Origin: Bacteroidales bacterium
GTDB lineage: Bacteria > Bacteroidota > Bacteroidia > Bacteroidales > VadinHA17
Direction: 5' to 3'
Assembly (NCBI GenBank): GCA_003141895.1
Contig: PLNT01000016.1
Span: forward strand, 1-64,000
Length of the DNA stretch: 64,000 bases
The translations under genes and the position numbers were made by a program. Of this stretch, positions 30,014 through 53,961 are shown piece after piece (the stretch's first letter is position 1; each line of letters begins with the position of its first letter). The notes below the pieces were generated by a model. The model had not been told where the DNA came from, ran no database searches, and saw only the letters and a list, made by a program, of their open reading frames with translations.

Positions 30014-30016
30014 CTT

Positions 30017-32689: not shown

Positions 32690-32695
32690 CTGATC

Positions 32696-33586
32696 TTACT
32701 TTTTTTCGAATTTTGAAATTAACGCTGCTGCCTGTTCTTCTGTGGTTTTTAAACGAAACAACATTTTTTTCAGCTCTTCGATATCGTTAGGATTTATATC
32801 TTCTATAGATTCTTTCTGCAAAGTTACTGACATTTTCTGCTTGTTTTTCTTAATATTATCTGCCATTTCGTTCACAACTACCGAAATCTCAGAAAATTCA
32901 TCATTCCCGTCGAAATACAACCGCTGATTAAAATCGCTTGAAACAATTTCCTTCAGTCCATGGTACAGTTGAAAAAAACGCCTGTTAAAATAAGCGGCAA
33001 AACTAAAAGCAAAACTCATTCCAATTAAAAAACACATGGTTGCAAGGATTGTCATCTTTGTAAGAGCACTTTGTGACGAAGCCTTGGCGTCATCTGTTTT
33101 TACTTCTAGTGCTTTCCCGTTCATCTGTGAAAGTAAAGACAACTGCTGATAAAGATTTCCAGATTTATTTTGAAGATAAAACAAACCTGCAGCTGATTTT
33201 GGTGATTTTATTATGGTTTGCAAAGAATCTCTGTATTCAATATAATCAGCCTCGATACCCGATACAAGTTTATCTTCCCCGGGCTCTGTGATGTTATTCT
33301 TTTCAGATAGTAGTGACTGATTTATCTGTTTAAGTTCTTTTGCAATTTTCAAACTATCATGAACCCTTTTTGTTAAAAAGGAGGTAGTGATTTCCTGATT
33401 TATGTTCATCAGACCTTCCGACATCTCGCGTGCATAAACAACAGACAAGTAATTTTCCTTCAGAATTGCACTGGTCTTGGATGACAGTTTATTAAGATAA
33501 TAACCTGAAAAAACAGCCAACACAGATATGATTATAAATAAAAAAATCATACCAAGGGTAAATCGTGTGCGGATTGAATGTTTCAT
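32696..33586 (-). CDS. 4HB_MCP-like sensor plus HAMP protein without a kinase domain, inside the kdp operon
   Basis: Two TM helices flanking a helical periplasmic domain; HAMP-like GLKEIVSSDFNQRLYFDGNDEFSEISVVVNEMADNI; ends before any HisKA/HATPase motif. Confidence 0.75.
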   Translation of the reverse strand: MKHSIRTRFTLGMIFLFIIISVLAVFSGYYLNKLSSKTSAILKENYLSVVYAREMSEGLMNINQEITTSFLTKRVHDSLKIAKELKQINQSLLSEKNNITEPGEDKLVSGIEADYIEYRDSLQTIIKSPKSAAGLFYLQNKSGNLYQQLSLLSQMNGKALEVKTDDAKASSQSALTKMTILATMCFLIGMSFAFSFAAYFNRRFFQLYHGLKEIVSSDFNQRLYFDGNDEFSEISVVVNEMADNIKKNKQKMSVTLQKESIEDINPNDIEELKKMLFRLKTTEEQAAALISKFEKK

Positions 33587-33624
33587 AACATTTATGTTAG
33601 TGGTTACTGGTTATTGGGTGCTGG

Positions 33625-34236
33625 TTACTGGTGGATTTTATTTAGTTCTAAATTTAACAATAATACGTTAATGCGGGATTCACCTAAACATAAAAACTGT
33701 GGATCTTCAGTCATTTCCTTAATTATTTTCAGAAGTTTTTCTTTTTGAGTGCTATCGAAATGCCTGGCTGATGCGACTCTTTCTACCTGCATTAAAGCTG
33801 CTTCAGGGGAGATATGGGGATCCAGACCACTTCCCGAGGCAAATGCCATTTCTTTTGGAGTTAACAAGGGGTCTGGCAAAGAATTCATTTTTGCAAAAAG
33901 GACACGTCGGGCAGTAACCTGTTTTTTTAATGTATCGCTTGTAGGTCCATAGTTTGATGCTCCCGATGGAATTGGATTATAACCAATGGCAGAAGGTCTC
34001 GACCAGAAATAGATAGTGCTGTCAAATTTTTGGCCAATGAGTTCCGATCCTATAATTTTTCCATCCTTCATAATCAGGCTGCCATTGGCTTTGGAGTGGA
34101 AACCCAACTGTGCCAGGCCGGTCATTAAAAGCGGATAGATAATACCTGTAAGTATAGTCATTACAAGCAAAAATTTTAAGGCTATTATAGTTTGTGTTTT
34201 CATAATGAGTTTAATTTTTGTTTTTAATTGTTGCAC
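33625..34236 (-). CDS. kdpC: KdpC K+-transporting ATPase subunit C
   Basis: LTGIIYPLLMTGLAQLGFHSKANGSLI, SELIGQKFDSTIYFWSRPSAIGYN, GSGLDPHISPEAALMQVERVA. Confidence 0.95.
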   Translation of the reverse strand: MQQLKTKIKLIMKTQTIIALKFLLVMTILTGIIYPLLMTGLAQLGFHSKANGSLIMKDGKIIGSELIGQKFDSTIYFWSRPSAIGYNPIPSGASNYGPTSDTLKKQVTARRVLFAKMNSLPDPLLTPKEMAFASGSGLDPHISPEAALMQVERVASARHFDSTQKEKLLKIIKEMTEDPQFLCLGESRINVLLLNLELNKIHQ

Positions 34237-34239
34237 TTT

Positions 34240-36330
34240 TTAAATCATATGTACAGAAACAAGTAACATATCTATCAGCTTGATGCCAATAAATGGTACA
34301 ATAATTCCTCCGATTCCATAGATAACAATATTCAAAGCCAGCACACGGTTGGCCGAGATGGGTCTGTACTTCACACCTTTCAGTGCGAGCGGAATAAGAG
34401 CCACAATAATAAGTGCATTAAAAATCACAGCGCTTAATATTGCGCTTTCAGGTGAATGAAGTTTCATAATATTCAGTACTCCCAGCGGAGATATACCAGA
34501 AGCTGTAACATATAGGGATGTAGCGATAGCGGGTATTATGGCGAAATATTTAGCAACATCATTGGCAATACTGAAGGTAGTCAATGCTCCACGTGTCATA
34601 AGTAACTGCTTGCCAGTTTCAACCACTTCTATGAGTTTTGTCGGATTACTGTCGAGATCAACCATATTTCCTGCTTCCCTGGCCGCCTGGGTACCGGTAT
34701 TCATTGCAAGACCCACATCGGCCTGGGCGAGTGCCGGCGCATCATTTGTTCCATCGCCTATCATTCCAACCAGATGACCATTTGCCTGTTCTTCTCTTAT
34801 ACGGTGAAGCTTATCTTCTGGTTTAGCTTCTGCAAGAAAATCATCAACACCGGCTTCAGCAGCAATGGCAGCTGCAGTCTGCGGATTATCACCTGTTATC
34901 ATAATTGTGCGGATACCCATCATTCGAAGCTGTGCGAACCGTTGCTTAATTCCTCCCTTAACAATATCCTTAAGATGAATAACACCCATTACCTGATTAT
35001 TTTCAGCTACAACCAACGGGGTTGCTCCCTGACGTGAAAGTTCCGTTACAGTCTCTTCTACATTTTTTGGGAAAAATCCATTATTGTTTTCTATGAATTT
35101 TTTTATAGCGTTTGAAGAGCCTTTTCGAATACTTCTAAGTTGACCATCAGGATTTCTGAAGTCAAGACCGCTCATACTGGTTTGCGCGGTGAAGGGGACA
35201 AATACACTGTCCATAGGCTGCATTTCCCTGGCTCTTATATTAAACTGTTCTTTTGCCAAAACAACAATCGACCGGCCTTCGGGCGTTTCATCAGCCAGTG
35301 ATGCCAGTTGTGCTGCATCAGCAAGTTGTTCTTTAGTAAATCCTTCGGCTGGGATAAATTCTGTAGCCATCCGGTTACCCAATGTAATTGTTCCTGTTTT
35401 ATCAAGAAGTAACACATCTGTATCTCCGGCAGCTTCAATTGCTTTTCCGCTGGTGGCTATAACATTTTTTCGCAGTAATCTGTCCATACCACTTATTCCA
35501 ATAGCACTAAGCAAACCCCCAATAGTTGTAGGAATGAGGCAGACAAGAAGTGAAATCAGAACAGGCAGCGTCAGGTTGTGATTTGCGGAAACACCAGAAG
35601 CTTTCAGACTATATCCGAAGTACGCCGGCAGGGCAACAACTACTAAAAGGAAAATAATAGTAAGACCTGAGAGAAGAATGATCAAAGCAATCTCATTCGG
35701 TGTTTTCTGCCGTTTTGCACCCTCAACCAGGGCAATCATCCGGTCAAGAAATGTAAAACCGGGTTCGGAAGTTATTTGAATAGTAATAGTGTCGCTGATC
35801 ACTTTGGTTCCTCCTGTTACGGCACACCTGTCACCACCGCTCTCGCGGATTACGGGAGCAGATTCTCCTGTAATGGCAGATTCATCGACACTGGCAATAC
35901 CTTTTATGACATCACCATCAGCAGGAATTACATCTCCGGCATCACATATCACTACATCACCTTTCCTCAGATCATTGGCAAGAACTATTTCTTCCTTATT
36001 ATTGATAAGCTTACGAGCTTTTGTCTGAGTGCGGCTCTTACGTAAACTGTCAGCCTGAGCTTTACCCCGGCCTTCAGCAACTGCTTCGGCAAAATTGGCA
36101 AATAAAACTGTAAACCAGAGCCAGAGTGTAATCTGAAAGTTAAAGTTTGAAAAATGACTGTTTAATATATCAGTAAATACGACTACCGTCGTCATTAATG
36201 CTCCAATACCAACAATGAAAATAACCGGGTTTTTAACAAGAACACCAGGGTTCAGTTTGATAAAAGAATCCTTTAATGCCTGGACAGCTATTTCCCTGGT
36301 AAAAAGCTGATTCATATTTCGTTTTTCCAT
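34240..36330 (-). CDS. kdpB: KdpB K+-transporting P-type ATPase
   Basis: [71 protein letters not shown]. Confidence 0.97.
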
Positions 36331-36348
36331 AATATTTATTTTGAAAAT

Positions 36349-38034
36349 TTAAAAAGTAACACCCAGATTCATCAAAAAATGTTCGACAATAGGACCAAGT
36401 GCAAGAGGCGGGAAAAAAGTCAATCCTCCAACTATAAGAATAACACTTATCAACAGCATGACAAACAGCCAGTTGTCGGTTCTGAAGGTACCTGATGAAA
36501 CAGGGGTGATCTTTTTCTTTGCCATGCTCCCTGCTATAGCCATAACAGGAACAATTATTCCAAAACGACCTATAAGCATGCCAAATCCAATCATCAGGTT
36601 ATAAAAAACTGTGTTTGCGTTGAGCCCGGCAAAAGCGCTGCCATTATTTCCGGCTGCCGAGCTAAAAGCATATAATATTTCTGAAAGACCATGTGGACCT
36701 GCATTATTCAGTCCCGCCAGTCCGGCGGGCACCGAACAGGCAACTGCGGAAAATAATTTTATGACAATACTTGGAGCTAAAACTGCAAGAATAGCCATTT
36801 TCATCTCAAAAGCTTCAATCTTTTTGCCCAGGTACTCCGGAGTTCGGCCAACCATGAGTCCTGCAATAAAAACAGTCAGTATTATAAAAATTATTATACC
36901 ATATAAACCCGATCCCACTCCACCAAAAATTATCTCACCCAGCATGAGGTTGAACATTGCTACGAGACCTGACAATGGTGACAAACTATCATGCATTGCA
37001 TTTACTGAACCATTCGAGGTAACAGTGGTAGTGACTGACCAAAGTACACTGTTCATCACTCCAAACCTGGTTTCCTTTCCTTCCATAGAACCAGCAACAT
37101 TCAATACATTGTTGTGACTATATTCCGCCCAGAGCGATATGGCCAGACCCAATGCAAAGAGGATAAACATAGTAATAAATATCGCCCTTGCCTGGCGTTT
37201 GGACTTCATATAATATCCGAATGTAAACACAAGACCAGCTGAGATAATGATAAGTGAAAACATTTCCAGCAAGTTGGAAAAAGGTGTCGGATTTTCAAAT
37301 GGATGAGCACTGTTGGCATTAAAAAATCCTCCTCCGTTTGTACCAAGTTGTTTTATCGCAATTTGAGATGCAGCAGGTCCAAGTGGAATAATCTGTTGCG
37401 TTCCCTGTAGGGTAGTTGCTTTGACATAATGCGAAAATGTTTGTACTGCTCCCTGTCCTACTAATATAATAGTGAGAAGAATTGAAAGAGGTAATAACAC
37501 ATAAAGAACACTTCTGGTCATATCAGCCCAAAAATTACCCAAAGCATCAGTAGTTTTCCTGGTCAGCCCACGTATAAGGGCCAATACCACTGATATACCG
37601 GTTGCCGCACTGACAAAATTCTGAACAGTAAGACCCATCATCTGAACCAGGTAACTCAAAGTATTTTCGCCGCTATAAGATTGCCAGTTTGTATTTGTTA
37701 TAAAGCTCGCAGCTGTATTAAACGAAAGATGCCATGAAACATTCGGCAGCTTTTCTGTATTCAGGGGCAGATATGCCTGAAACATCTGTATTAGAAATAA
37801 AAATACCATACCAAAAAGATTGAAAAGGAGAACGCCATACAAGTAGGTTTTCCAGTTCATCTCCTCCTCGCTTTTAAGACCTGAAACCTTGTATATTGAT
37901 GTTTCAAGCCAACCAAAGACTGGCTTCATAAAATGTTTTTCACCCATGAATACTTTTGCCATATACTTACCTAACAAAGGCGAGAGTACTATAAGCAGTA
38001 CCATGAAAATGATCAGTTGAATCGCTTCGTTCAT
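36349..38034 (-). CDS. kdpA: KdpA K+-transporting ATPase subunit A
   Basis: NTAASFITNTNWQSYSGENTLSYLVQM, LGTNGGGFFNANSAHPFENPTP, GRTPEYLGKKIEAFEMKMA. Confidence 0.97.
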   Translation of the reverse strand: MNEAIQLIIFMVLLIVLSPLLGKYMAKVFMGEKHFMKPVFGWLETSIYKVSGLKSEEEMNWKTYLYGVLLFNLFGMVFLFLIQMFQAYLPLNTEKLPNVSWHLSFNTAASFITNTNWQSYSGENTLSYLVQMMGLTVQNFVSAATGISVVLALIRGLTRKTTDALGNFWADMTRSVLYVLLPLSILLTIILVGQGAVQTFSHYVKATTLQGTQQIIPLGPAASQIAIKQLGTNGGGFFNANSAHPFENPTPFSNLLEMFSLIIISAGLVFTFGYYMKSKRQARAIFITMFILFALGLAISLWAEYSHNNVLNVAGSMEGKETRFGVMNSVLWSVTTTVTSNGSVNAMHDSLSPLSGLVAMFNLMLGEIIFGGVGSGLYGIIIFIILTVFIAGLMVGRTPEYLGKKIEAFEMKMAILAVLAPSIVIKLFSAVACSVPAGLAGLNNAGPHGLSEILYAFSSAAGNNGSAFAGLNANTVFYNLMIGFGMLIGRFGIIVPVMAIAGSMAKKKITPVSSGTFRTDNWLFVMLLISVILIVGGLTFFPPLALGPIVEHFLMNLGVTF

Positions 38035-38046
38035 ATTTTTAAGGTA

Positions 38047-38211
38047 TTAAAATTTATCAGGTCTTAATAAAGTATAAACTAAATAGCCCAATATCAGGAG
38101 TGCAATAATTCCTCCGATAAGATAACTAAGTGGACCGTTAGAAACATTCGTACCCGATTGTATAGGTACAACTAAAAGAGACAGTAGCGATGTTGAAGCT
38201 TTTGAGTTCAT
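38047..38211 (-). CDS. kdpF: KdpF-like small membrane subunit (54 aa: MNSKASTSLLSLLVVPIQSGTNVSNGPLSYLIGGIIALLILGYLVYTLLRPDKF)
   Basis: Translated by hand; absent from the ORF track; hydrophobic helix ending YTLLRPDKF as in KdpF; directly upstream of kdpA. Confidence 0.82.
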   Translation of the reverse strand: MNSKASTSLLSLLVVPIQSGTNVSNGPLSYLIGGIIALLILGYLVYTLLRPDKF

Positions 38212-38269
38212 AATATTTTCTGTATAATTTTGATATTAATTAAACCTGTAAATTATTGATTGTCTTTGA

Positions 38270-39346
38270 TTAAAAAGCAACAGCTAATGATGTCGTTACA
38301 AAATAGTTTCGACTTGAAACCTTATTATCTAATGTGAATATCTTGTCTTTACTGTTAAGTGCTCTTCCTTCAATTCTCCACATTACGTTGTCGCTAATTT
38401 TGTAATCGAAATTTAATGAATAACCGTACGTCTGGAACCCGTTGGGAGTACCTGTGGCAATGATAATTCCATTTTTGTCATTATAATATTCTCCTCGAAC
38501 AGCAACCGCCAGCTTATTGCAGCATTGATAATGAAAAATAACTACTGGGCTGTACAGTGTGTTATACTTAGTGCTGCCTTTACTCTTTTGTTCCATACCA
38601 TAATCAAAACCCAGGGTGATCCTGAATTTATCCGTTGCATTAAGTATTGCGTAGAAATTATGATAGTAGCGCATTTGAGAAACAGAATCCGGTTTATCGT
38701 TCCCTATAAATGTACTATAGTTAAAGGTAATTTTACCGTTTGGAGTAAATGTAATTTGTGTTCCGAGAGCAGGGGTGTTGTTTCCATTGACACGCGCAAT
38801 CCTCTGCCAGCCATTTACAACTAATCCGGAGAGAAACCATTTGCTGTTGTCAGAAGTGTAACTGATTTTAATTCCACTTTCCCAACTTGGTGTGTCGTCG
38901 CCTATAATGCAACGTGTAAGTGCATCGCAAGTTTTTCCAACCGGGCTTTCAAATCCAATATGTGATGGAAATACTCCTGCATCTAACCATAAATTTTTAT
39001 TTTTGGACAATTTCACTCCAATATTTGCCTGCCATAAATTTTTGAGTAAGGGTTGTTCTGCAGATGAGTTATACTGGGCCCAGGTTCCCTCCATCAATCC
39101 GAAGTTTGCACGGACATTTTTTGCAGTATAACTCGCATTGATGAATCCGAGATTCAGATTCGCTTCATTATGCCTGTTAAAATTGTAGAAAAAAGAGGGT
39201 CGCTCATGATTACCGGGATTACCGAAATCATAACTGTAATACACTTCAGCATAACCTGAAAATGTAAGCAAAGCTTTACTGCTGTCTGCCTGAGCAAATG
39301 ATGCTGATGTTATCAGTGAAAACATTGCAATAAGAAATTTTTTCAT
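38270..39346 (-). CDS. Putative outer membrane beta-barrel porin, head of the kdp locus
   Basis: Signal peptide ending SFAQA, alternating beta-strand pattern (SGYAEVYYSYDFGNPGNHERPSFFYNFNRHNEANLN), C-terminal aromatic strand NYFVTTSLAVAF. Confidence 0.8.
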   Translation of the reverse strand: MKKFLIAMFSLITSASFAQADSSKALLTFSGYAEVYYSYDFGNPGNHERPSFFYNFNRHNEANLNLGFINASYTAKNVRANFGLMEGTWAQYNSSAEQPLLKNLWQANIGVKLSKNKNLWLDAGVFPSHIGFESPVGKTCDALTRCIIGDDTPSWESGIKISYTSDNSKWFLSGLVVNGWQRIARVNGNNTPALGTQITFTPNGKITFNYSTFIGNDKPDSVSQMRYYHNFYAILNATDKFRITLGFDYGMEQKSKGSTKYNTLYSPVVIFHYQCCNKLAVAVRGEYYNDKNGIIIATGTPNGFQTYGYSLNFDYKISDNVMWRIEGRALNSKDKIFTLDNKVSSRNYFVTTSLAVAF

Positions 39347-39496
39347 TCTATTATAAATAAAAGACCAAACATTTTTATAAGATTAATTACGATACAAAAT
39401 TGCACCCTAATTCATAAGGGTTTAATAAAAACCATACCTAAAACCGTTAAGATTTTATAAATATGGAATTAAAAAACCTGAGGAATTGGAATATGT

Positions 39497-39520
39497 TGGG
39501 AACGGTCGCGACCATTCCTA
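39497..39520. repeat. Degenerate second copy of the GTCGCGAC palindrome (tgggaacggtcgcgaccattccta)
   Basis: Shares gggaac-n-gtcgcgac and ttcc arms with 18271-18298. Confidence 0.75.
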
Positions 39521-39557
39521 CACATAACCGAATAAACGATTGGGATGCAGGCGTATA

Positions 39558-41579
39558 TTATTCAATTTTTATAGGAAAAATTACAATCGGGATCCCGAAT
39601 TTGAAGAATCTCTTCTGAATGGAAAAGATTGTATGATTGTGTAATAATTTGGAAAGGTAGAATGTTTTGGAAAAGACAAGCTGTCCGCCGAAAAAGGCTG
39701 CGCCCGATAGTCTTGGTCGTAACCTTTTGATAATACGGTAAATTTCATTCACAGGGTCAGTTCCTATTGTCCAGAAACTCTTGCCATACAGCCCAAACTG
39801 ATTTGCAACAGTTACATACTTTTCTCCATCTTCTTTCACCTGTTTCGTAAAGTGATCCAGTTCTATGGTTCCCCTGTAAATTTTTGAATTAATAATACCA
39901 ATTCGCACAAAAACAATATTATTATATACCCCTTTGAAGTTTTCAAGAATTCGCAGAAACGTATATAATCCTGTTCCGCCAAAACCACTGACTAAAATAA
40001 TGGCTGTTCTCCCATTTTTGTCAAACGCGATTTTTTTAAGGTTACGGTCAGCACAAGGCCTCTGGCCGATAAGTTTTTCAATTTCCTGGAAAGCTTTCAA
40101 TCTCAGTTTCTGTAGTTTTATGGCTGTATTAAAATAATGGCGTTTAATATTGATAGCTAATAAGATCAGCAACCCTGTAATAAACAACGTTGCCCAGCCC
40201 CCCTGGCCGAATTTCAGAATAATAACAGATACCAGAATGAAGGAAGTAAGTATCAGACCTATTCCATTTATAGCTAATTTCCGCTTCCATGGAACATGTT
40301 TTGCTCTCATCTGCCACCAGTGTTTTACCATACCAACCTGGGAAATGGTAAACGTGATGAACACATTAATACTATACAGAACAACAAGCAATGCAACGGA
40401 TCCTTTAGATAAAACCATCATTATTAGAGCTCCAGTGCCCATCAATAAAACCCCGTTCATTGTAACAAGCCGGTCGCTGAGAGAAGCGAATCTTTTTGGC
40501 AGCCAGTGATCTATTGCCATATTTGCCATAATTCTCGGGCCATCTATAAATCCGGTTTGTGCGGCAACAAATAAAAGTGCAGCTTCCGAAATCAGGGTTA
40601 TAAGAACAAAACTCCTCGACCAGAAATAACCCCAGCCTGCAGTAAGGTTATCAAGTAATACGGCATTTAATGTTTTATGAGTATCGAGCTGAACATTAAA
40701 AAGCATGTAACAAATCATTAGTCCCATTACCATGAATGATAATGAGATAACCATCAGGAACATTGTCTTGCGCGCAGTCGCTACTTTAGGTTCCCGCAGA
40801 ATTGGCATGCCATTGCTAACCGCTTCAATACCCGTATATGTTCCGGCACCCATGCTATAAGCCCGCAGAATAATAAAGAATGTTGCAAAAAAACCAAACT
40901 GGTTAACAGTCTGGTGAATATCGTTTGACGTTTGAGCGGCAACAGCTGCAATATTTGAAGAATGAATTAAAATCCCATATAAAATCGCAGCAACATGTGT
41001 AATAATGAAAATCATGAATATCGGAGTAAGGGAGAGTACCGATTCTTTTACCCCCCTGAGGTTTAAAAGAATCATAAAACAAACCCCTATAAGAGCGAAT
41101 GTAAGCTTGTATGGTTGCCAGGTAGCAGGAAAATAGCTGAACAGTGCATCAGCACCACTGGATATTGAAAGTGTAATTGTAAGAACATAGTCGATTATAA
41201 GAGCAGAACCGGAAATCATCCCCGTCGTTGGTGACAATAATTTACTGCCCACCAGGTATCCTCCTCCTCCATGCGGAAAAAGACGAACTATCTGGTTATA
41301 ACTTGAACTAATAATGACAATTGTAAAAACTGTACCAAGTGCGACAAATATGGCTAAGCTGGGGTGCCCTAATAAGTTTCGGTATGCTTCCTCGGGACCG
41401 TAACAGGATGATGATACTCCGTCTGCTCCTAGACCAATCCATGCAAAAAAAGCAACTAATGTTAATTTATGGAATAACCCTTTATCCTGGATCAACTTGG
41501 CTCTGCCTATGAATGTATTTTTAATTTTTTGATTAAAAGTAAATCCTTCAGTTGATTCCACTCTTTTTTCGCTCTTCAT
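39558..41579 (-). CDS. APC-superfamily permease with cytosolic C-terminal domain (amino-acid/K+ transporter-like)
   Basis: FFAWIGLGADGVSSSCYGPEEAYRNL, LFPHGGGGYLVGSKLLSPTTGMISGSALIIDYVLTI; ~12 TM. Confidence 0.82.
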   Translation of the reverse strand: MKSEKRVESTEGFTFNQKIKNTFIGRAKLIQDKGLFHKLTLVAFFAWIGLGADGVSSSCYGPEEAYRNLLGHPSLAIFVALGTVFTIVIISSSYNQIVRLFPHGGGGYLVGSKLLSPTTGMISGSALIIDYVLTITLSISSGADALFSYFPATWQPYKLTFALIGVCFMILLNLRGVKESVLSLTPIFMIFIITHVAAILYGILIHSSNIAAVAAQTSNDIHQTVNQFGFFATFFIILRAYSMGAGTYTGIEAVSNGMPILREPKVATARKTMFLMVISLSFMVMGLMICYMLFNVQLDTHKTLNAVLLDNLTAGWGYFWSRSFVLITLISEAALLFVAAQTGFIDGPRIMANMAIDHWLPKRFASLSDRLVTMNGVLLMGTGALIMMVLSKGSVALLVVLYSINVFITFTISQVGMVKHWWQMRAKHVPWKRKLAINGIGLILTSFILVSVIILKFGQGGWATLFITGLLILLAINIKRHYFNTAIKLQKLRLKAFQEIEKLIGQRPCADRNLKKIAFDKNGRTAIILVSGFGGTGLYTFLRILENFKGVYNNIVFVRIGIINSKIYRGTIELDHFTKQVKEDGEKYVTVANQFGLYGKSFWTIGTDPVNEIYRIIKRLRPRLSGAAFFGGQLVFSKTFYLSKLLHNHTIFSIQKRFFKFGIPIVIFPIKIE

Positions 41580-42047: not shown

Positions 42048-44012
42048 TTACAGAAACGAATAGTTCTTTCCATAATACAACATTTGTCCCAGATAATCAT
42101 CTGCATATTCAACCTTTAAATCTGTCATTTCACCATTATTATCAAAAACTGGAACCAGGGTTGGATTTACAAACCCTGTGTAAGGAGCAAGATTCAGTTT
42201 TTTATAGCGTTCGAGAATCTCAGAATGCAATTGGGAATTAACTTTTACACCATAATTTTCGATCAGATTTTTACCTGCCTGAAAATCTCCCTCTGACTTT
42301 ATTCTCTGGATTTCTTTCAGCAACTCTCCAAAAAGGTTTCTGAGCTTCAGGTAATCATTGATTTTTACGTAGCTTTTTCCTTCCTGACTGAAAAACTCAA
42401 CAACATTTTCTGATTTACCATTTTCATAAACCCAATGACATATGGCTGATCTGTTTCGCATGTGAGCTTCCTCAATATCTTTACCCGGCTTTATCCTTAC
42501 TAATTGTGTTAATAATCCGTTTCTGAGATAAGTGTCATATGAGGCTTTTGCAGCATCCTCATCCGGCAGGAGACCAAGCTCCATGACTTTCTTATCAATT
42601 ATGTAGTAAAGGGCAAAGAGATCTGCCCTTGCTTCTTCGAGAGCAGAAGCATAATTTTTAAGAGCATTTGGATCGGTACCTTCTGCAAGCTTGCCACTTG
42701 CATGCCCGACACACTCGTGAAGGTCGGTATGCAATGCATCAGAAAGAGCACCGAATTTTCTTATCCGCTCCGCCTCATTAATATCTGCTGCGAATTCTTC
42801 CAGAAATCCATTGCCCTGCGATGTGATATCGTAAGCGTTTGTTATATTTCCCAGTGTAACTGATTTTGATCCAACTTCTTTCCTTATCCAGTTGGCGTTA
42901 GGAAGATTAATACCAAGAGGTGCTGCGGGATAGCAGTCTCCCCCCAGCATAGCAATATTAATAACTTTAGCAGCTACACCTTTGACCTTTTCTTTCCTGT
43001 ATTTTTGCTGAACAGGTGAATTGTCTTCAAACCACTGTGCATTGTCTGTAATTATTTTGGTCCTTTTGGTAGCTTCAGCATCTATATAATCAACAATTGC
43101 CTCCCACGTTGCTTTCATTCCAAGCGGGTCACTGTACGTTTCTATGAACCCATTAATATAATCGACATCCCCATCGCTGTCCTGAGCCCAAAGGATATTG
43201 AATTGATCCCATACGTTAAGATCCCCCGTTTTGTAGAAACTAATAAGAAGTCTGATTCCTTCTTTCTGTTTTCCGGAACCGGCAATATCAATAGCCTTTT
43301 CAAGCCAGTAAATTATCTGATCGATTGCCGGGCCATATAAACCTCCTGATCTGTAAACATCTTCAAACAATTTCCCTTCCATTTTTATAACCTTTGAGTT
43401 TAATCCAACTGATATGGGTCTTGGATCATTTGAATCAATTTTGCCAGAATAGAAATCTTCAACCTCTTTCTGATTTACCCCTTCATACACGTTTACAGCG
43501 GAACCGGCAATAATATCAATGTCAGCTTTCAGCTCAACTTTCCTTGCAAAAAGTTTTTCATCAAAAATTACTGTCTTCAGAACAGATACTAAACTATTAA
43601 CGTCTTGACTATTTGCCAGAGGAAGCAATTTCTGATCAATTGATCTTATCATACTTTCAAAATAGTTTCCGGAAAACCCGGGTATTAATTTATCGGTCGA
43701 ATAGTGGTGATGTATACCATTAGCAAAAAAGACTCTCCTGGCATAAACCAGAAAGGTTTTATATTCGATGGAATCTTTGTCCCCTTTAAAATTTTCAATA
43801 ATTGCTTCAAGGGTTTTTCTGATCTGAATATTAAATTTAAAATTCTGGTCCCATAATATATCTCTTCCCGACAGTGCGGCCTGGCTTAAAAAGTAAATGA
43901 ACTTCTTTTGTTGCAGGGTTAATGATTCAAATCCGGGAAGCCTGTATTTCAGTACCCTCATATCGTCAAACTGATCTACAAAATAATTAAAATCGTTGTT
44001 GCTCATTACCAT
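42048..44012 (-). CDS. Peptidase family M49 (dipeptidyl-peptidase III-like)
   Basis: HECVGHASGKL (HEXXXH-type zinc motif of M49), EEARADLFALYY. Confidence 0.88.
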   Translation of the reverse strand: MVMSNNDFNYFVDQFDDMRVLKYRLPGFESLTLQQKKFIYFLSQAALSGRDILWDQNFKFNIQIRKTLEAIIENFKGDKDSIEYKTFLVYARRVFFANGIHHHYSTDKLIPGFSGNYFESMIRSIDQKLLPLANSQDVNSLVSVLKTVIFDEKLFARKVELKADIDIIAGSAVNVYEGVNQKEVEDFYSGKIDSNDPRPISVGLNSKVIKMEGKLFEDVYRSGGLYGPAIDQIIYWLEKAIDIAGSGKQKEGIRLLISFYKTGDLNVWDQFNILWAQDSDGDVDYINGFIETYSDPLGMKATWEAIVDYIDAEATKRTKIITDNAQWFEDNSPVQQKYRKEKVKGVAAKVINIAMLGGDCYPAAPLGINLPNANWIRKEVGSKSVTLGNITNAYDITSQGNGFLEEFAADINEAERIRKFGALSDALHTDLHECVGHASGKLAEGTDPNALKNYASALEEARADLFALYYIIDKKVMELGLLPDEDAAKASYDTYLRNGLLTQLVRIKPGKDIEEAHMRNRSAICHWVYENGKSENVVEFFSQEGKSYVKINDYLKLRNLFGELLKEIQRIKSEGDFQAGKNLIENYGVKVNSQLHSEILERYKKLNLAPYTGFVNPTLVPVFDNNGEMTDLKVEYADDYLGQMLYYGKNYSFL

Positions 44013-44935: not shown

Positions 44936-46621
44936 ATGAGAAGAACTGTTTCTATAATCCTTTCGATACTGCTTCCGTCAGTTGCATTTTCACAGGATAG
45001 AATTACCGGTCATGATTTTGCTACAAGATCAGAAGTAATTGCGCGTAACGGAATGGCAGCAACCAGTCATCCGCTTGCGACTCAGGTGGCTCTCGATATT
45101 TTAAAAAAAGGCGGAAATGCAATTGATGCTGCGATAGCTGCAGATGCAGTTCTTGGTGTTGTTGAGCCAACAGGTGCCGGTGTAGGTGGTGACCTGTTTG
45201 CTATAATCTGGAGCGCCGACAAAGGTAAATTATATGGATTAAACGGAAGCGGGAGATCCCCACGCTCATTAAAGCTTGAATACTTTAAAGAGAACGGATA
45301 TGAATTTATTCCATCTTTTGGTCCCCTTCCGGTTTCAGTCCCGGGATGTGTCGATGGCTGGTACGAAATGCACGATATGTTCGGCCATCTGCCAATGAAT
45401 GAAGTACTTCAACCGGCAATCACTTATGCAAGAGAAGGGTTTCCTGTTACAGAAGTAATTGCTTTTGCTCTCAAACAAGCTGAGACTTTAAAAGAGTATC
45501 CAAATATAAAAGAGGTTTACATGTCTTCAGGGCATCCACCGATAAAAGGTGAAATTTTCAAAAACCCATTACTGGCCAACACTCTTGAAAAAATAGCCAA
45601 AGGAGGCAGATATGAATTTTATAAGGGATCAATTGCAAAGGACATAGCTGCCTTTATGAAAAAACAGGGAGGCTTCCTTTCATACGATGACATGTACAGG
45701 CATCATTCAGAATGGGTAGAACCTGTCAGTACGTCTTATCGTGGTTATGAAGTCTGGGAACTACCTCCAAACGGACAGGGCATTGCAGCCCTGCAGATGC
45801 TTAATATACTTGAAGGATATGATATTGCTGCAATGGGTTTTGGTTCAGCTGATTACATACATGTTTGGACTGAGGCGAAAAAACTGGCCTTTGAAGACAG
45901 GGCAAAATATTATGCTGACCCATTTTTCAATAAAATTCCTGTATCTCAGCTCATTTCAAAAAAATATGCTGCTGAGCGGCGCAAGCTTATTGATATGAAT
46001 AAAGCTGCCAAGATTTATGATCCTGGAAAAATAGAGGGCCCGAATACAGTTTATCTGACAGTTGCTGACAAAGCAGGAAACATTGTTTCTCTCATTCAGA
46101 GTAACTACAGAGGAATGGGATCAGGTATGTGCCCTACGGGTTTGGGATTTGTTCTGCAGGACAGGGGTGAAATGTTCAGTCTCGAGGAAGGACATATGAA
46201 CGTTTATGCACCAGGCAAAAGACCTTTTCATACTATAATTCCATCATTCATAACAAAAAACGGCAAGCCCTGGGTAAGTTTTGGTGTGATGGGTGGTGAT
46301 ATGCAACCACAGGGGCAGGTTCAGATTATCGTTAATCTCATTGACTTTAAAATGAATCTCCAGGAAGCAGGTGACGCTCCCAGGATGCATCATATCGGAT
46401 CGTCCGAACCAACCGGTCAGCAAATGACAAATGGAGGCATTCTTCTTCTTGAAAGCGGTTTCCGTACCGAGGTCATCCAGAATCTTATGTCAAGAGGTCA
46501 TACAATTCAATGGGATCTTGGGGGTTATGGTGGTTACCAGGCCATAATGTGGGATGATAAGAATAAAGTGTGGTTCGGGGCTTCTGAATCGAGAAAGGAT
46601 GGTCAGGCTGCGGGATATTAA
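44936..46621 (+). CDS. Gamma-glutamyltransferase family protein, secreted
   Basis: Signal peptide, ATSHPLATQVALDILKKGGNAIDAAIAADAVLGVVEPTGAGVGGDLFAI, NTVYLTVADKAGNIVSLIQSNY. Confidence 0.92.
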   Translation: MRRTVSIILSILLPSVAFSQDRITGHDFATRSEVIARNGMAATSHPLATQVALDILKKGGNAIDAAIAADAVLGVVEPTGAGVGGDLFAIIWSADKGKLYGLNGSGRSPRSLKLEYFKENGYEFIPSFGPLPVSVPGCVDGWYEMHDMFGHLPMNEVLQPAITYAREGFPVTEVIAFALKQAETLKEYPNIKEVYMSSGHPPIKGEIFKNPLLANTLEKIAKGGRYEFYKGSIAKDIAAFMKKQGGFLSYDDMYRHHSEWVEPVSTSYRGYEVWELPPNGQGIAALQMLNILEGYDIAAMGFGSADYIHVWTEAKKLAFEDRAKYYADPFFNKIPVSQLISKKYAAERRKLIDMNKAAKIYDPGKIEGPNTVYLTVADKAGNIVSLIQSNYRGMGSGMCPTGLGFVLQDRGEMFSLEEGHMNVYAPGKRPFHTIIPSFITKNGKPWVSFGVMGGDMQPQGQVQIIVNLIDFKMNLQEAGDAPRMHHIGSSEPTGQQMTNGGILLLESGFRTEVIQNLMSRGHTIQWDLGGYGGYQAIMWDDKNKVWFGASESRKDGQAAGY

Positions 46622-47376
46622 CCCCCAACCCCCAGCAAATCCATAACCCCATTAATATATGTAAGCGGATGAATGGGATTTCCGGGCACATACAAGTCAA
46701 TGTGATTTTTCTCAATAAATCTTCTGTCTATTGCAGGACTTCCTTCAAAGATGCCTCCGCTTATAGCGTCAGTACCTGCCAAAATAATGATTTTAGGTGA
46801 AGGAATAGCTTTGTAAGTAATTTCCAGCGCTTCAGCCATATTCTCCGAGATGGGTCCTGTTATCACTATTCCATCGGCATGACGAGGTGAAGCAACAAAT
46901 TCAATACCAAAACGTCCAAAATCAAAATTCACATTCCCGGTAGCGGCAAGTTCCATTTCACAAGAATTATCTCCCCCGGCAGATACCTGACGCAGCTTCA
47001 ATGCACTTTTAAAAAGTCTTCTTATCTCTTTTCTAATAAGGTTTTCATCAAGTTGTAACGGAGTTTCAGAACCCGGTTTGATAATAAGTGCTTCCCTGAC
47101 ATTGGATGATATCCTGTAATCATTTGTGAACCTGATCTTATTGGGGAGCAGGAACGAACATTCTTTACAGAAAACACATCTGCCCATATCTATAGATCCT
47201 GAGTTACCATTAATGGCCATTACCGGGCAGGCAGAAAAGACAGTTTTGATTTCATCTTTTGTTATATCATCTGAAATGACCGGTCTCCCTCTGAACAACT
47301 CGGAAACAGGCTGCATACGAAGGTTTTTGACATATTGTATGCCGTGACTCTTCAGAACATTTATCTCTTTAAACAT
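46618..47376 (-). CDS. Fused degenerate ferredoxin (HyfH/NuoI-like) plus HyfI/NuoB-like small subunit lacking N2-type ligands
   Basis: ACPVMAI...GRCVFCKEC then GGDNSCEMEL...RFGIEFVASPRHADGIVITGPISENMAEAL...GTDAISGGIF...LYVPGNPIHP. Confidence 0.85.
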   Translation of the reverse strand: MFKEINVLKSHGIQYVKNLRMQPVSELFRGRPVISDDITKDEIKTVFSACPVMAINGNSGSIDMGRCVFCKECSFLLPNKIRFTNDYRISSNVREALIIKPGSETPLQLDENLIRKEIRRLFKSALKLRQVSAGGDNSCEMELAATGNVNFDFGRFGIEFVASPRHADGIVITGPISENMAEALEITYKAIPSPKIIILAGTDAISGGIFEGSPAIDRRFIEKNHIDLYVPGNPIHPLTYINGVMDLLGVGG

Positions 47377-47399: not shown

Positions 47400-48920
47400 T
47401 TATAAATCGTTTCCGCAATACGACAGGTTAAAACTCTTATTACAGATCGGGAAATCCGATATTTCCTGATTACGCACTGCCAAAGCTAAAGCCATCCAAT
47501 TATGCATGGAAGGATCTTTGACTTTATAATGTGCAATATTTCCGCTATTATCAGTGATAGCGATATGACAAATTTCACCTCTCCATCCTTCGACCATGGA
47601 GATTGCAAAGCTGTCTGGCTTTAAGTTATAGTCATAAACAGGCTTCCTGAAGTCTTTAATTTTTTGTTGCCATATCTCAATAAGTTCATGAATAATTTTC
47701 ACCGATTCGTGTACCTCAAGAACACGTTCCATCCCTCGCGCAAGGACATCGCCTGTTTCAAGAATTACCGGTCGGACCAAATAGTTTTTATAGTATTGAA
47801 AAGGATGCGTTTTACGTATATCACGTAAAATCCCGCTTGTACGGGCAGTCATTCCAACGGTACCCAGGCTTAAAGCTTGTTGTCTTGTAAGGATCCCGAT
47901 ATCATCAAAACGGCCAAGAACGCTTGGCAGTGAATAAATAAGATCAGTTACTTCAAAAAATCGTCTGCCTGTATCATCAAGTACACGGAGTATCTCGTTT
48001 ACAACTTCATTATTCAGGGGATAATTACTGCCACCGGGGCGGATAAGCCCTTTGCCAAAGCGATTCCCGCACCAAAATTGGGTAGTATTTATTATTGTGG
48101 TTCTCAGAGCCTCGCATACTACTTGTCCAAGCTGGTAAGCTACATCGCCACATAAAGCAGAAGTGTCGCCGATGTGAATAGCGAGCCTTTCCATTTCCAA
48201 AGCGATGCACCTTTCGATCTGTAATGCTTCGCTGACCTGAATACCAGCTAATGATTCAATAAGTTGCGAATGAGCCATAGAGTGTCCGATTGAAGTATCG
48301 CCGGCAATACTTTCTGAAAGGATACATCTTTGTAATGCATTGCATTTCGTAATAAATAACTCTTCAATTCCACGATGCTGATACCCTAATTGAATTTCGA
48401 GGTGTAAAACCTTTTCACCGTTACAGATAAACCTGAAATGCCCTGGTTCAATAATACCTGCATGTACCGGTCCTACTCCTACTTCATGAAGCTCTTCACT
48501 CTCAATATTATAAAAAGGATAATTATCCATAATCTCTGACACGTCTTTACGATTATACGGATATCTAACAGGCTTCAGCCATGGATGGCCCACAAATTCA
48601 ACTCCGAAATTTTCGTGAATTTCACGTTCAAAAATATGAAGCGGTACGCATTCCGGAGTAAGAGATTTTAGCACGGGATGATCCTTATTAAGCTCATGAG
48701 CAAATAATACCACAATATTATTGTTATCATCAGCTATACAACAATAAAGTTTCAGATTGCCCGCTGACTCAACTCCGTAATAGGCAACGCAGTGCTTTCC
48801 TTCCTCTTTTAAAAAAGCCAAAACACGATCATAAAAAATCTCATATTTTAAAATGGGTATTTCTTTTAGGTCAAGCGGTAGTGAATTGTTTTTTATTTCC
48901 ATATATAGTTTTTGATCCAT
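47400..48920 (-). CDS. HyfG/NuoCD-like large subunit without NiFe-binding cysteines
   Basis: HIFEREIHENFGVEFVGHPWLKPVRYP (NuoC part), GPVHAGIIEPGHFRF, SESIAGDTSIGHSMAHSQ where hydrogenases have RxCGxC, DPSMHNW where hydrogenases have DPCxxC. Confidence 0.88.
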   Translation of the reverse strand: MDQKLYMEIKNNSLPLDLKEIPILKYEIFYDRVLAFLKEEGKHCVAYYGVESAGNLKLYCCIADDNNNIVVLFAHELNKDHPVLKSLTPECVPLHIFEREIHENFGVEFVGHPWLKPVRYPYNRKDVSEIMDNYPFYNIESEELHEVGVGPVHAGIIEPGHFRFICNGEKVLHLEIQLGYQHRGIEELFITKCNALQRCILSESIAGDTSIGHSMAHSQLIESLAGIQVSEALQIERCIALEMERLAIHIGDTSALCGDVAYQLGQVVCEALRTTIINTTQFWCGNRFGKGLIRPGGSNYPLNNEVVNEILRVLDDTGRRFFEVTDLIYSLPSVLGRFDDIGILTRQQALSLGTVGMTARTSGILRDIRKTHPFQYYKNYLVRPVILETGDVLARGMERVLEVHESVKIIHELIEIWQQKIKDFRKPVYDYNLKPDSFAISMVEGWRGEICHIAITDNSGNIAHYKVKDPSMHNWMALALAVRNQEISDFPICNKSFNLSYCGNDL

Positions 48921-48928
48921 GACATTTA

Positions 48929-50356
48929 CTATTTAAGAAAAATGGAAATACTCTGGTTAATAAGATCAACCAGGATGGGAGGTTGATAAAAACACATAAC
49001 GAAAACAACCCCAAGGAATAGAAATTGGCTGACAGTCTCAACAGGATTAATTTTTTCCGGGGACTTTTGATAATTCTCATTACGAGGATTCGAAAATACA
49101 ATATGCATAATTCTTGTGCTCATGGCATAAATAACAAAGCACAGCAGCAGAATTACAGTTACCAATACAAACCATTGGTTATTGAAAACGGCTGCTTTAA
49201 ATATCATAAACTCAGTAATAAACAGACCTGAAGGAGGAATGGCAAGAATGCAGATCATTCCCGTAATAAGTACTAAAGCGCCGGCAGGATATAGTTTCAT
49301 ATACCTGCCACATTCATCTAATTTGAATGTATGAAGTACCCTTGATAATTGTCCCATTTGATAAAAAAGACTCGATTTTGTTAATGAATGCAACACCAGG
49401 AGAAGCAACGCTGCATAATAACCAACTCCACCCACACCAATCGCAATAGCTACCAGTCCCATGTTTTCCAGACTTGAATATGCAAGCATTCTCTTAAGGT
49501 GTTTTGCTTTAAGCATGTAACCCGCAGCAATTAAGATAGACAAGACCCCTGACAGGATAAGAACATGATTCATAAAAGGCAAAATAGATGATAAAGAAAA
49601 TAAAGTATAAACACGAAAAATAGCCAGAAAACCGACATTCATCAATGTAGTGGAAATTAAGGCGCTGATTGGAGGCGGTGCTACAGAATGTGCATCAATG
49701 GTAACAGTATGCATGGGAAAAAGACCCATCTTTGTGCTGAAGCCAACCAGAACAAAAATAAATGCAATTTTCAGATACATGGGATTGGCCTGATTAATAA
49801 TATTCGCTAAAGATTCAAAAGAAAGATTGGCAGCATCTTCCCGGCCATAAATAAATCCTAAAAACAAAATACCAAGATAAGCCATAGCTATCCCGGTTGA
49901 ACAGATAAAAACATACTTCCATGTTGCTTCAAGCGCCATTTCCGTGCGATCGTGATATATCAGGGCTGCCACAGCCAGGGTGGTAGCTTCAACAAAAATC
50001 CATAGAACAGTCATGCCATTTGCCAGGTATGCACCCGACATAAAAGTCATTAAAGCAATCAGGGCAGCATGGTATATATTATATTTTTTCACATCGTCAC
50101 CGGCTGCATAAATAAATCCATGGTAAACAGTTGGAATAGCTAAAAACGATAAAACGGAAAGTAATAACACACCGGCGCTGTTATAAGTGAAATAGCTCAA
50201 TTCGGTTTTATTTAAGTTAGTCCAGCAATAGAAAGTAAAACCAATGTGCATTAATGCGAAACTAAGGCTTATAATTTTAGTAATAGTTTTACTTTTAAGT
50301 AAGACTATCGAGATGCACATAAATGATGAAATGATAAAAAATAATAAAAGTGTCAT
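48929..50356 (-). CDS. hyfF: HyfF/NuoN-like antiporter-type membrane subunit
   Basis: STKMGLFPMHTVTIDAHSVAPPPISALISTTLMNVGFLAIFRVY, MLAYSSLENMGLVAIAIGVGG. Confidence 0.88.
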   Translation of the reverse strand: MTLLLFFIISSFMCISIVLLKSKTITKIISLSFALMHIGFTFYCWTNLNKTELSYFTYNSAGVLLLSVLSFLAIPTVYHGFIYAAGDDVKKYNIYHAALIALMTFMSGAYLANGMTVLWIFVEATTLAVAALIYHDRTEMALEATWKYVFICSTGIAMAYLGILFLGFIYGREDAANLSFESLANIINQANPMYLKIAFIFVLVGFSTKMGLFPMHTVTIDAHSVAPPPISALISTTLMNVGFLAIFRVYTLFSLSSILPFMNHVLILSGVLSILIAAGYMLKAKHLKRMLAYSSLENMGLVAIAIGVGGVGYYAALLLLVLHSLTKSSLFYQMGQLSRVLHTFKLDECGRYMKLYPAGALVLITGMICILAIPPSGLFITEFMIFKAAVFNNQWFVLVTVILLLCFVIYAMSTRIMHIVFSNPRNENYQKSPEKINPVETVSQFLFLGVVFVMCFYQPPILVDLINQSISIFLK

Positions 50357-50983: not shown

Positions 50984-51895
50984 TTAGATTAATTTGTCGG
51001 TTAATATTAAAATTACCACAAAAGCTATCCAAGCAATTGCTGAAATGGTAAGGATGAATTTGGGATTTTTGTTCATCTTGTTCCTGGCTCTGAACGATTC
51101 TGTAAGGCCAATGATTACTGCAAATACCACCTGAACTGTCAAGAACAAAACAATCTGCAGAAATATGTTCCATCCGGCAGGCACAATAACATTATACATC
51201 AAAGCACCATAAATTGCAAATTTCAGGTACGTACCAATATGAATCAATGCTTTATCAAAACCGCTGTTATCCAGTATCATAACCTCATGTATCATGGTGA
51301 GTTCGAGATGCGTTCTGGGGTCATCGACCGGGAGTCTGCTGTTTTCGATCATGGCTATCTGAACAAATATATAAAATCCTATAATGCTGTATATCAACAC
51401 ATAATGAGTTCCTGCAAGAAAAAAATGACTAAAAATGCCCGAGAAAGAAGTATAACCGGTAAGCATTGCAAAAGTAGCCAGCAAAATAAAGAATGCCGGT
51501 TCCACGAGCATTGAGAAAAATGCTTCACGATTGGCGCCCATTCCCCCGAAACTGCTCCCGGTATCGAGAGCAGAAAGAATGGTAAAAAACTTTCCGAAAG
51601 CGAGAAGGTAAGCGAAAAAAACAAAATCACCTTCAAATGATATAACAGCACTCTGAGTGGCAAATGGTATTACCAGCAAAACACACAAAACACTTGACAA
51701 TGCAACAACCGGAGCAATTTGAAATATTCTTCCTGAGGTCTTGCTGAAAACACTTCCTTTTCTCATCAACACTCCTATATCTTTGATTGGCTGAAGTATT
51801 CCCTGACCTTTACGTCCCGATGATATGCTTTTTGTACGTAATATTATTCCGGGAAAAAAGAAAGCTGCAATTAAGATCAGAACAAACGACATCAT
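50984..51895 (-). CDS. hyfC: HyfC/NuoH-like membrane subunit
   Basis: GRKGQGILQPIKDI, GGMGANREAFFSMLVEPAFF, ENSRLPVDDPRTHLELTMIHEVMILDNSGFDKALI. Confidence 0.92.
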   Translation of the reverse strand: MMSFVLILIAAFFFPGIILRTKSISSGRKGQGILQPIKDIGVLMRKGSVFSKTSGRIFQIAPVVALSSVLCVLLVIPFATQSAVISFEGDFVFFAYLLAFGKFFTILSALDTGSSFGGMGANREAFFSMLVEPAFFILLATFAMLTGYTSFSGIFSHFFLAGTHYVLIYSIIGFYIFVQIAMIENSRLPVDDPRTHLELTMIHEVMILDNSGFDKALIHIGTYLKFAIYGALMYNVIVPAGWNIFLQIVLFLTVQVVFAVIIGLTESFRARNKMNKNPKFILTISAIAWIAFVVILILTDKLI

Positions 51896-51897: not shown

Positions 51898-53961
51898 TCA
51901 GATAAGGTTAAAATAGGTTAACAAAAACACAAGGAGCATATAAACAAATGCATATAATATGTAATGCTGAATCTGCCCGGTTTGCATAACTGCAATTTTT
52001 TTCAGAAGTGATGAAAACCAATCTATCGGCTTGTCAATAAGTAACTTTTTGATAATATCGTCACTATGCGACTCAAAGGTTCTCTTCACGGGGAATATTT
52101 CGTCATCCCGGAAGTCATCCATTATTTTTTTTGTCTGGAGCAATGGTTTTGCAAGATGGTTGTAATTATAGGTATACGATGTTGCAGTATATTGTTGTTT
52201 ACTGGTGCCGGCAGTATAGCCACAGCCCCATGTGGGCCCAATGTCAATTTGTTTCGTCTTAAGATAAAAGTGCCTGTAAACAAGTAATATAACGATAGTA
52301 ATAACAAATATTCCACTCAAAATACTTATTTGGGCGAGGTTATTTACAGAAGAATTAGCTACCATTGTCATATCGGGTAGCCTGAACGCCTGGAATACTA
52401 TATTAAAAACAGGTTTCACAAATAAGACCGATGCCAATCCTATCAGTATTATAAAAGCGACGGTTATAAATTGAGGAAAAATCATCACCCGGCTGACTTC
52501 CTTAGCCTTTGATGCTTTTTCTGAACGGGGCTCTCCAAGAAAGACTATTCCAAAAGCTTTTGTAAAACAGAAAATTGCCAGTCCCCCTATGAGAGCAAGT
52601 CCGACAATGCTTGACAGTATAACGATAGACTGATATAAGTTAGCGGCTGACAGGCTTTTAAACATGCCCATGTAGATAAGATATTCAGATATAAAGCCAT
52701 TGAAGGGAGGTAAGCCGCAGATTGCCAAAGAACCAATTAAAAAGAAAATAGCGGTATATGGCATTTTCTTCATCAACCCTCCCAGCTGTTCAATGTTTCG
52801 TGTATGTGTGGCCTGATATACCGAACCTGCATTAAAAAAGAGAAGCGATTTAAAAAGGGAATGATTCATAACATGGAGCAAGCCCCCGCTAAAACCAAGC
52901 AGGCTCAACGCGGTATTATTTGTTGCAAGGCCAATCACCCCCAGTCCAATTCCGATACCTATGATGCCTATATTCTCAATGCTATGATAGGCCAACAAGC
53001 GTTTAAGATCATGTTGAACGATAGCCATCATTACACCAAACACACCTGACGCAATAGAAATTGACAGTACAATAAGACCTATTAAAAGCAAATCATTTTG
53101 TACCGACATGATCACACGCAAAATACCATAGATGCCCATTTTTATCATTACCCCTGACATTACTCCCGATACATGCGATGGAGCCGCTGGGTGAGCCTCA
53201 GGGAGCCATGTATGCAAGAGAATAAAACCGGCCTTTATGCCAAACCCGATAAAAAACAGGATAAAAAGCAGAAAATTAGAATGACTTGCAAAATATAGTC
53301 TAAGAGCGTCAAAGCTCATTTGTCCGGTTGCTTTATCAACTATTAAAAAGCTTATTAAGATAAAAAACATGCCAACATGCATCTGTATAAGGTAACTGAT
53401 ACCAGTTTTCATTATAGTGCGGTCTTCTGCATCAAAAATCACAAGGAGGAACGATGACAGAGCCATTAATTCCCAGACAATTAGAAACGACAAGCCATCG
53501 CGTATCATCACTACCATTATCATCGAAAGGTAGAGCCACAGGTACGAGAAGTAATGAATCGAAAAACGTAAAGCATTTTTGCTTTGATAATATGGTTGAA
53601 GGTACCCTCTGGCATAAAGGAAACCTATAAAAACCGTTATATTAACCACGACTATAAAAAATGCTGAAAGGCTGTCTATCGTTAAGAGGAAATTCCTATT
53701 AAAAAAAGATGTATATAACTGTATATTAAGCTGTTGATTATTACCGTTAAGCACTCCAAAACACCATAAAGAAGTTAAAATTATACCACTTGTAAGTAAA
53801 AACAAAGTATAATAATATTTTAAAGACTTGGGGATAAAAAAAACCAGGAACGAGAGAGATAAAATAATAAGAAATAATATAGCATTCATCATCAGTGGTA
53901 AATAATATAAAGTCTTTATAGTTTTTTTGTTGTCATTAGATGATTTCTTGTTTGACAACAA
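51898..53961 (-). CDS. hyfB: HyfB/NuoL-like antiporter-type membrane subunit
   Basis: GFGIKAGFILLHTWLPEAHPAAPSHVSGVMSGVMIKMGIYGILRV, LLAYHSIENIGIIGIGIGLG. Confidence 0.92.
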   Translation of the reverse strand: MLSNKKSSNDNKKTIKTLYYLPLMMNAILFLIILSLSFLVFFIPKSLKYYYTLFLLTSGIILTSLWCFGVLNGNNQQLNIQLYTSFFNRNFLLTIDSLSAFFIVVVNITVFIGFLYARGYLQPYYQSKNALRFSIHYFSYLWLYLSMIMVVMIRDGLSFLIVWELMALSSFLLVIFDAEDRTIMKTGISYLIQMHVGMFFILISFLIVDKATGQMSFDALRLYFASHSNFLLFILFFIGFGIKAGFILLHTWLPEAHPAAPSHVSGVMSGVMIKMGIYGILRVIMSVQNDLLLIGLIVLSISIASGVFGVMMAIVQHDLKRLLAYHSIENIGIIGIGIGLGVIGLATNNTALSLLGFSGGLLHVMNHSLFKSLLFFNAGSVYQATHTRNIEQLGGLMKKMPYTAIFFLIGSLAICGLPPFNGFISEYLIYMGMFKSLSAANLYQSIVILSSIVGLALIGGLAIFCFTKAFGIVFLGEPRSEKASKAKEVSRVMIFPQFITVAFIILIGLASVLFVKPVFNIVFQAFRLPDMTMVANSSVNNLAQISILSGIFVITIVILLVYRHFYLKTKQIDIGPTWGCGYTAGTSKQQYTATSYTYNYNHLAKPLLQTKKIMDDFRDDEIFPVKRTFESHSDDIIKKLLIDKPIDWFSSLLKKIAVMQTGQIQHYILYAFVYMLLVFLLTYFNLI

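Follow-up and report, generated by a model that had tools for sequence, protein, structure and literature searches.

What can a protein built like the large subunit of a hydrogenase do once the cysteines that should hold its NiFe centre have gone? The question is raised by positions 47400-48920 of the window, by which we mean the whole stretch of 64,000 nucleotides that was analysed. This segment holds, on the minus strand, an intact open reading frame of 506 amino acids, in which Pfam finds the 30-kDa (NuoC) domain at the N-terminus and the 49-kDa (NuoD) domain at the C-terminus, and the protein scores far under the NuoD and NuoCD equivalog cut-offs. It belongs, as the large subunit, to an Ehr (energy-converting hydrogenase related) complex of six subunits: the six genes, all on the minus strand, stand in the order HyfB-like, HyfC/NuoH-like, HyfE-like, HyfF-like, large, small (Table 1), and Mrp/NuoLMN-like and NuoH-like membrane subunits are encoded together. 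Ehr is a known family without NiFe ligands and of unknown function, as Marreiros et al. 2013 are cited in PMC6349859. It is also treated in PMC10284858 and PMC4378227, and PMC6728331 deals with the M. tuberculosis Rv0081-Rv0087 operon.

Table 1. Subunits of the Ehr operon in the window and the sites discussed in the text
Feature	Positions	Strand	Basis
HyfB-like antiporter-type subunit, 687 aa, TTG start as called; E164, K243, K274, K371, E426 conserved	51898..53961	-	NF005086
HyfC/NuoH-like membrane anchor, 303 aa; E-channel E124, E132, E184, E204 kept	50984..51895	-	
HyfE-like membrane subunit, 204 aa	50360..50974	-	NCBIfam NF008556
HyfF-like antiporter-type subunit, 475 aa; transmembrane Glu/Lys conserved (E123, K209, E382)	48929..50356	-	
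Ehr large subunit, NuoC+NuoD-like, 506 aa, no NiFe cysteines	47400..48920	-	ORF; Pfam PF00329+PF00346; AF2/Foldseek
L1 position, residues 203-213 ESIAGDTSIGH (A206, T209 replace two Cys; D208 invariant)	48282..48314	-	HycE alignment; residue counts
DPSMHNW, residues 469-475; conserved PSF.N segment upstream of L2	47496..47516	-	Alignment; counts
True L2, residues 499-503 LSYCG (S500, G503 replace two Cys)	47412..47426	-	Alignment to HycE SLDPCYSC; counts; Cys531 numbering PMC9474812
Ehr small subunit, 252 aa: one-cluster ferredoxin-like domain fused to NuoB-like domain	46618..47376	-	AF2 pLDDT 94.9; Foldseek
Sole remaining [4Fe-4S] ligand set C50, C67, C70, C73	47158..47229	-	69/69 in clade
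Former proximal (N2-type) ligands 1 and 2: D136, C139, in GGDNSCE	46957..46971	-	
Former N2-type ligand 3: D203 in GTDAISGG	46768..46770	-	
Former N2-type ligand 4: N233 in PGNPIHP	46678..46680	-	

The large subunit keeps its fold and lacks all four NiFe cysteines

A sequence-only reading of the window had reported that all four NiFe cysteines are lost within an otherwise retained fold, and it had located L1 at ESIAGDTSIGHS. The phmmer alignment bears out this position: it pairs with HycE DRVCGICGFAHS, ESIAGDTSIGH stands opposite DRVCGICGFAH, and the first two cysteines become A206 and T209. The motifs GPVHAGIIEPGHFRF (150-164) and HRGIEELF (182-189) are intact, as had been stated. DPSMHNWMAL (469-478), however, had been taken for L2, and this is the wrong place. 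The segment pairs with HycE ATYANWPTL and Nqo4 PSFVNLQSL and lies upstream of the true L2, which is the extreme C-terminus of the subunit, where HycE SLDPCYSC is found opposite SFNLSYCG. The terminal nickel ligand of HycE is Cys531 (PMC9474812); it is chain position 543 in the alignment and pairs with S500, and the second HycE cysteine pairs with G503. Cys502, a cysteine in 55 of the 69 scored members of the clade described below, is close to L2 but out of register. The statement that there are no NiFe cysteines is thus right, although one of the two pieces of evidence given for it was misplaced.

A NiFe cysteine pattern was found at L1 or L2 in none of the 69 + 40 relatives scored, which include both MAGs and isolates, so the loss is neither chance nor a sequencing error. 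Ehr from other phyla have the same L1 and L2 replacement sequences. The fold itself is retained, since the AlphaFold2 model of the large subunit reaches a pLDDT of 91.8 and matches HycE of E. coli formate hydrogenlyase, its best solved match both by sequence and by fold, at a TM of 0.86.

The electron wire is cut to one [4Fe-4S] site

A further loss, absent from the sequence-only reading, lies in the small subunit (46618-47376), whose predicted structure matches MbhJ at 1.7 A rmsd. In the comparison group of 40 Ehr outside the clade, scored as full, all four positions of the N2-type proximal cluster are cysteines in every member (GGCNxCE, GACAISGG, PGCPPHP). In the window's clade the motifs read GGDNSCE, GTDAISGG and PGNPxHP, with D136 in 66, C139 in 49, D203 in 66 and N233 in 64 of 69 members. 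Because Asp/Asp/Asn is near-uniform here while Cys is kept in 40/40 elsewhere, we regard the change as a consistent replacement and not as drift. The residues E140, R165 and H166 beside these positions are invariant. The second ferredoxin-cluster motif was found in 1/69 members of the clade, versus 22/40 of the other Ehr. What remains is the C50/C67/C70/C73 set, which we take to resemble N6a of Nqo9 by its ligand order. The NiFe, N2-type and second ferredoxin ligands are thus all lost, and the electron wire of this Bacteroidota Ehr clade is shown to be cut to one ferredoxin-type [4Fe-4S] site. The published Ehr definition that was consulted does not include the full set of four proximal-cluster cysteines, which Ehr from other phyla carry and the small subunit of the window lacks.

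The relatives came from a scan of genome contigs, which yielded 80 loci spread over Bacteroidota, Ignavibacteriota, Spirochaetota, Verrucomicrobiota, Planctomycetota, Myxococcota, Thermodesulfobacteriota, Melainabacteria and other groups. Variovorax, Rhizobium, Azospirillum and Burkholderia were contributed by plasmid records, together with Salmonella HycE, which served as the true-hydrogenase control. Within the order of the host, orthologs at E < 1e-80 were present in 48 of 198 genomes, all with open frames, and about three quarters of the sampled genomes had none; three of these order-level large subunits are identical to ones from named Bacteroidota loci. In the large-subunit tree, loss of the N2 ligands marks one clade of 82 (SH-aLRT 100), window included. 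Of its members, 69 were scored as lost and 12 had no small subunit that could be scored, while L070 alone shows four cysteines; the clade statement rests on this tree together with the residue counts. L127 (Verrucomicrobiota), which lies outside the clade and reads C/A/C/W, was left out of both scored groups.

Two loci stand apart from this pattern. L070 (4275-6579) belongs to the N2-less clade by its large subunit, yet none of the four proximal-cluster cysteines is missing from its small subunit. It has no adjoining membrane-arm genes, and a gene for a DUF349 protein lies before it; its state may be due to reversion or to recombination, or may be a distinct one. In another Ehr lineage, L075 (7225-7752) encodes a small subunit without the ferredoxin domain and with Asp at three of the four cluster positions. 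It is a second, independent loss, seen in a single MAG with intact relatives (L162 and L163), and possibly represents an Ehr without any Fe-S cluster.

Loss of the NiFe ligands was already known for Ehr, and the new point is the N2-type loss across a Bacteroidota clade. No earlier report of it in Ehr was found in the open-access literature searched, and priority is not certain, Marreiros et al. 2013 having been outside that search.

The chamber is conserved and does not appear to suit its known chemistries

Glu158, which occupies the proton-donor position of HycE Glu193 and MbhL Glu21, is kept in 109/109 relatives. Asp208, Asn494, Lys495, Tyr501 and Asp505 are likewise invariant, and Ser500 is present in 108/109, so the cavity is not degenerate and could still hold a ligand other than a quinone, the second possibility raised in the sequence-only reading. 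The five invariant residues, with Ser500, form a new invariant polar set. The canopy residue Arg447 (HycE Arg478 in alignment numbering) is conserved in the alignments, and D259 pairs with Nqo4 Asp139. The known chemistries of the chamber (H2, quinone, polysulfide) each miss a required element here.

Turnover of H2 is disfavoured because the NiFe ligands are absent. Genome-wide absences rest on family searches of the host assembly (4.0 Mb, 96% complete), in which neither PF00374 (NiFe hydrogenase large subunit) nor PF01924 (HypD) had a match and the E. coli control was positive for both. The earlier verdict that this is not a hydrogenase therefore stands; a look for hypA-F had been proposed alongside it, and HypD, the only Hyp maturation gene searched, is missing from the genome.

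The quinone-like pocket that had been considered is not supported. Nqo4 His38 is replaced by Ile157 in 109/109 relatives and Tyr87 by Gly207 in 108/109, and the cluster that would reduce the quinone has lost three of its four ligands. The same genome has two ordinary complex I sets, in which both NuoD keep His38 and Tyr87 and both NuoB keep the tandem cysteines and the other N2 ligands. Quinone reduction is thus disfavoured, since the N2 ligands and the His38/Tyr87 pair are both absent. Polysulfide reduction of the MBS type is disfavoured because three of the four proximal-cluster ligand positions are changed; in MBS the reaction occurs at the proximal cluster itself, which catalysis needs (PMC7684303). 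In complex I, the R121M variant, with N2 lost or damaged, is inactive (PMC8042128). Even without N2, however, electron transfer need not be wholly blocked, since earlier reports, cited in the same paper, describe N2-depleted complex I mutants with 40-50% activity.

The operon is under purifying selection

We compared close pairs with unsaturated dS and obtained dN/dS values of 0.05-0.16 for both subunits. In the membrane arm, E164, K243, K274, K371 and E426 of the HyfB-like and E123, K209, E297, K327 and E382 of the HyfF-like subunit are 97-100% conserved in the clade, and 87-100% in cluster-bearing Ehr. The E-channel of HycD includes Glu130, 138, 189 and 206 with Glu199 and Glu201 (PMC9474812). 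The first four correspond to E124, E132, E184 and E204 of the HyfC-like subunit, and the last two are replaced by R194 and H196. Since the dN/dS values are low, the operon is conserved and the ion-pathway residues are kept as in other Ehr, decay of the operon is unlikely.

Neighbourhoods of the operon

The gene order B-C-E-F-large-small is constant among relatives and across many families, and the flanks are variable. No oxidoreductase partner or electron donor recurs beside the operon in the loci examined, and the operon in the window includes neither a formate dehydrogenase nor an NADH module. Inserted genes are sporadic (unrelated genes in L049, L096 and L139, and the DUF349 gene adjoining L070). 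In L043, a Na+/H+ exchanger gene (PF00999; 6025-7242) lies between the large- and small-subunit genes.

Potassium uptake genes are found near the operon of the window, namely a kdp operon and an APC-family gene (29330-41579) whose product we take to resemble KimA. As KdpA and the KimA-like protein lie beside none of the other examined Ehr operons, and KdpB beside one, we treat this proximity as coincidence. Positions 42048-44012 of the window encode a 654-aa peptidase of family M49 (dipeptidyl peptidase III), for which the best stretch covers only part of the Pfam model.

A gene for a fused HTH_17 + PTS_EIIA_2 regulator accompanies 18 N2-keeping Ehr loci from several phyla (L108:528-1217, L115, L119, L122, L123, L126, L128, L134, L138, L140-L143, L146, L147, L150, L152 and L154) and also L127. 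In many loci it lies directly upstream of the hyfB-like gene, and no N2-less locus carries it. Its place beside the N2-keeping operons suggests a PTS-Ntr-type control of Ehr.

A possible redox-decoupled transporter and its rivals

The simplest mechanism consistent with the retained residues is, we infer, a pump that is no longer driven by chamber-bound electrons. The route by which electrons enter the chamber in hydrogenase, MBS or complex I would be closed and, because it seems lost, the membrane arm probably does not draw its power from redox chemistry at that site. Gated cation/proton transport of the Mrp type would be its more likely work. The chamber (Glu158, Asp208, Lys495, Ser500, Tyr501) may form, together with the small subunit's Asp/Asp/Asn site, a conformational switch that responds to a ligand or to protons and acts on the E-channel. 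The one [4Fe-4S] site left, provided that it is filled, could be a redox sensor or purely structural. On the sequence evidence, an Ehr with a truncated wire, whose membrane arm is not electron-powered at the classical site and acts as a gated or sensing Mrp-type transporter, is the reading that we tentatively favour, at a little under an even chance. We are more hesitant about the evolutionary claim that a complete complex I-type machine became a redox-decoupled ion transporter in which the chamber and the former N2 site serve as a ligand or conformational switch; this is possible, and may well be wrong. Several points count against decoupling. The invariance of the retained cluster suggests some redox role, the Asp/Asp/Asn pocket could house another cofactor, position 139 has kept its Cys in most of the clade, and L070 is a member with four N2-site cysteines.

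The main rival to the decoupled reading is a remodelled cofactor site. The redox-driven pump would persist, with the Asp/Asp/Asn(+Cys) site binding another cofactor, either a single metal ion or a cluster with ligands other than Cys, and relaying electrons from the [4Fe-4S] cluster to some acceptor within the chamber. The substituted residues are polar and near-invariant, they stand beside the invariant E140, R165 and H166, and the retained cluster is itself invariant, all of which fits a remodelled rather than a dead site. However, position 139 has drifted from Cys to Ala, Val, Gly or another residue in 20/69 members, Alistipes relatives (L110, L112-L114) have Ala at N233, and no electron-donor gene recurs next to the operon in the loci examined. 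We consider this explanation rather unlikely, if the strongest of the competitors to decoupling.

It is improbable that the complex is a membrane-bound ferredoxin-type oxidoreductase, with the retained cluster feeding a soluble partner and the pump coupled at the cluster domain. Such an enzyme would account for the invariance of C50, C67, C70 and C73, but no partner gene recurs in the neighbourhoods examined, and we know of no coupling that acts from the position of the cluster domain. A quinone- or H2-active enzyme with unusual ligands is disfavoured, and we give it very little chance: the NuoCD-like fold and the match of D259 to Nqo4 Asp139 would agree with it, but Ile157 and Gly207 stand in place of His38 and Tyr87, and the proximal-cluster ligands, the NiFe ligands and HypD are all missing. 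A degenerating relic is scarcely credible, for although cofactor sites have been lost progressively and about three quarters of the sampled genomes of the order are without an ortholog, the dN/dS values contradict decay, the frames are intact in all listed orthologs and the whole operon is kept across many families.

Comparison with known systems

In complex I, the control of the distant membrane arm by the chamber is still debated. A natural relative in which both the substrate chemistry and the feeding cluster are gone, while the chamber acid, the pump residues and most of the E-channel remain, would separate coupling machinery from redox chemistry. It would mark out the residues that are conserved solely for moving ions, and would make a decoupled complex I-like machine open to experiment. 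The labels 'hydrogenase 4 subunit' and 'NADH-quinone oxidoreductase' are misleading for such operons, those of gut Alistipes included.

The system is closest to other Ehr, with which it shares the six genes hyfB-C-E-F-large-small and the lack of NiFe cysteines; unlike them, the window's clade has neither the proximal N2-type ligands nor the second ferredoxin cluster. Formate hydrogenlyase (Hyd-3, Hyd-4; E. coli 7z0s) provides the closest solved large-subunit fold, the Glu193 equivalent and several E-channel acids of HycD. However, the window's system lacks its NiFe ligands, proximal cluster, HypD and an operon-borne formate dehydrogenase, and it falls outside the group 4 [NiFe] hydrogenases by the four L1/L2 cysteines and by HypD, the sole Hyp gene searched. 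P. furiosus MBS (sulfane sulfur reductase) likewise has no Nqo4 His38/Tyr87, and belongs with its antiporter-like subunits to the complex I superfamily. Its site-differentiated proximal cluster is held by three cysteines, whereas the window's clade has one variable Cys at most, and MBS lacks the MbhL Glu21 that is kept here. Complex I (Nqo4/Nqo6) shares the fold, the Asp139 equivalent and the HRGxE motif, but its quinone residues (I157 and G207 here), its N2 cluster with the tandem NuoB cysteines and an NADH module in the operon are all missing. Mrp antiporters have homologous antiporter-like subunits, which move ions without a redox reaction; unlike Mrp, which has no peripheral arm, the system described here has retained a NuoBCD-like one.
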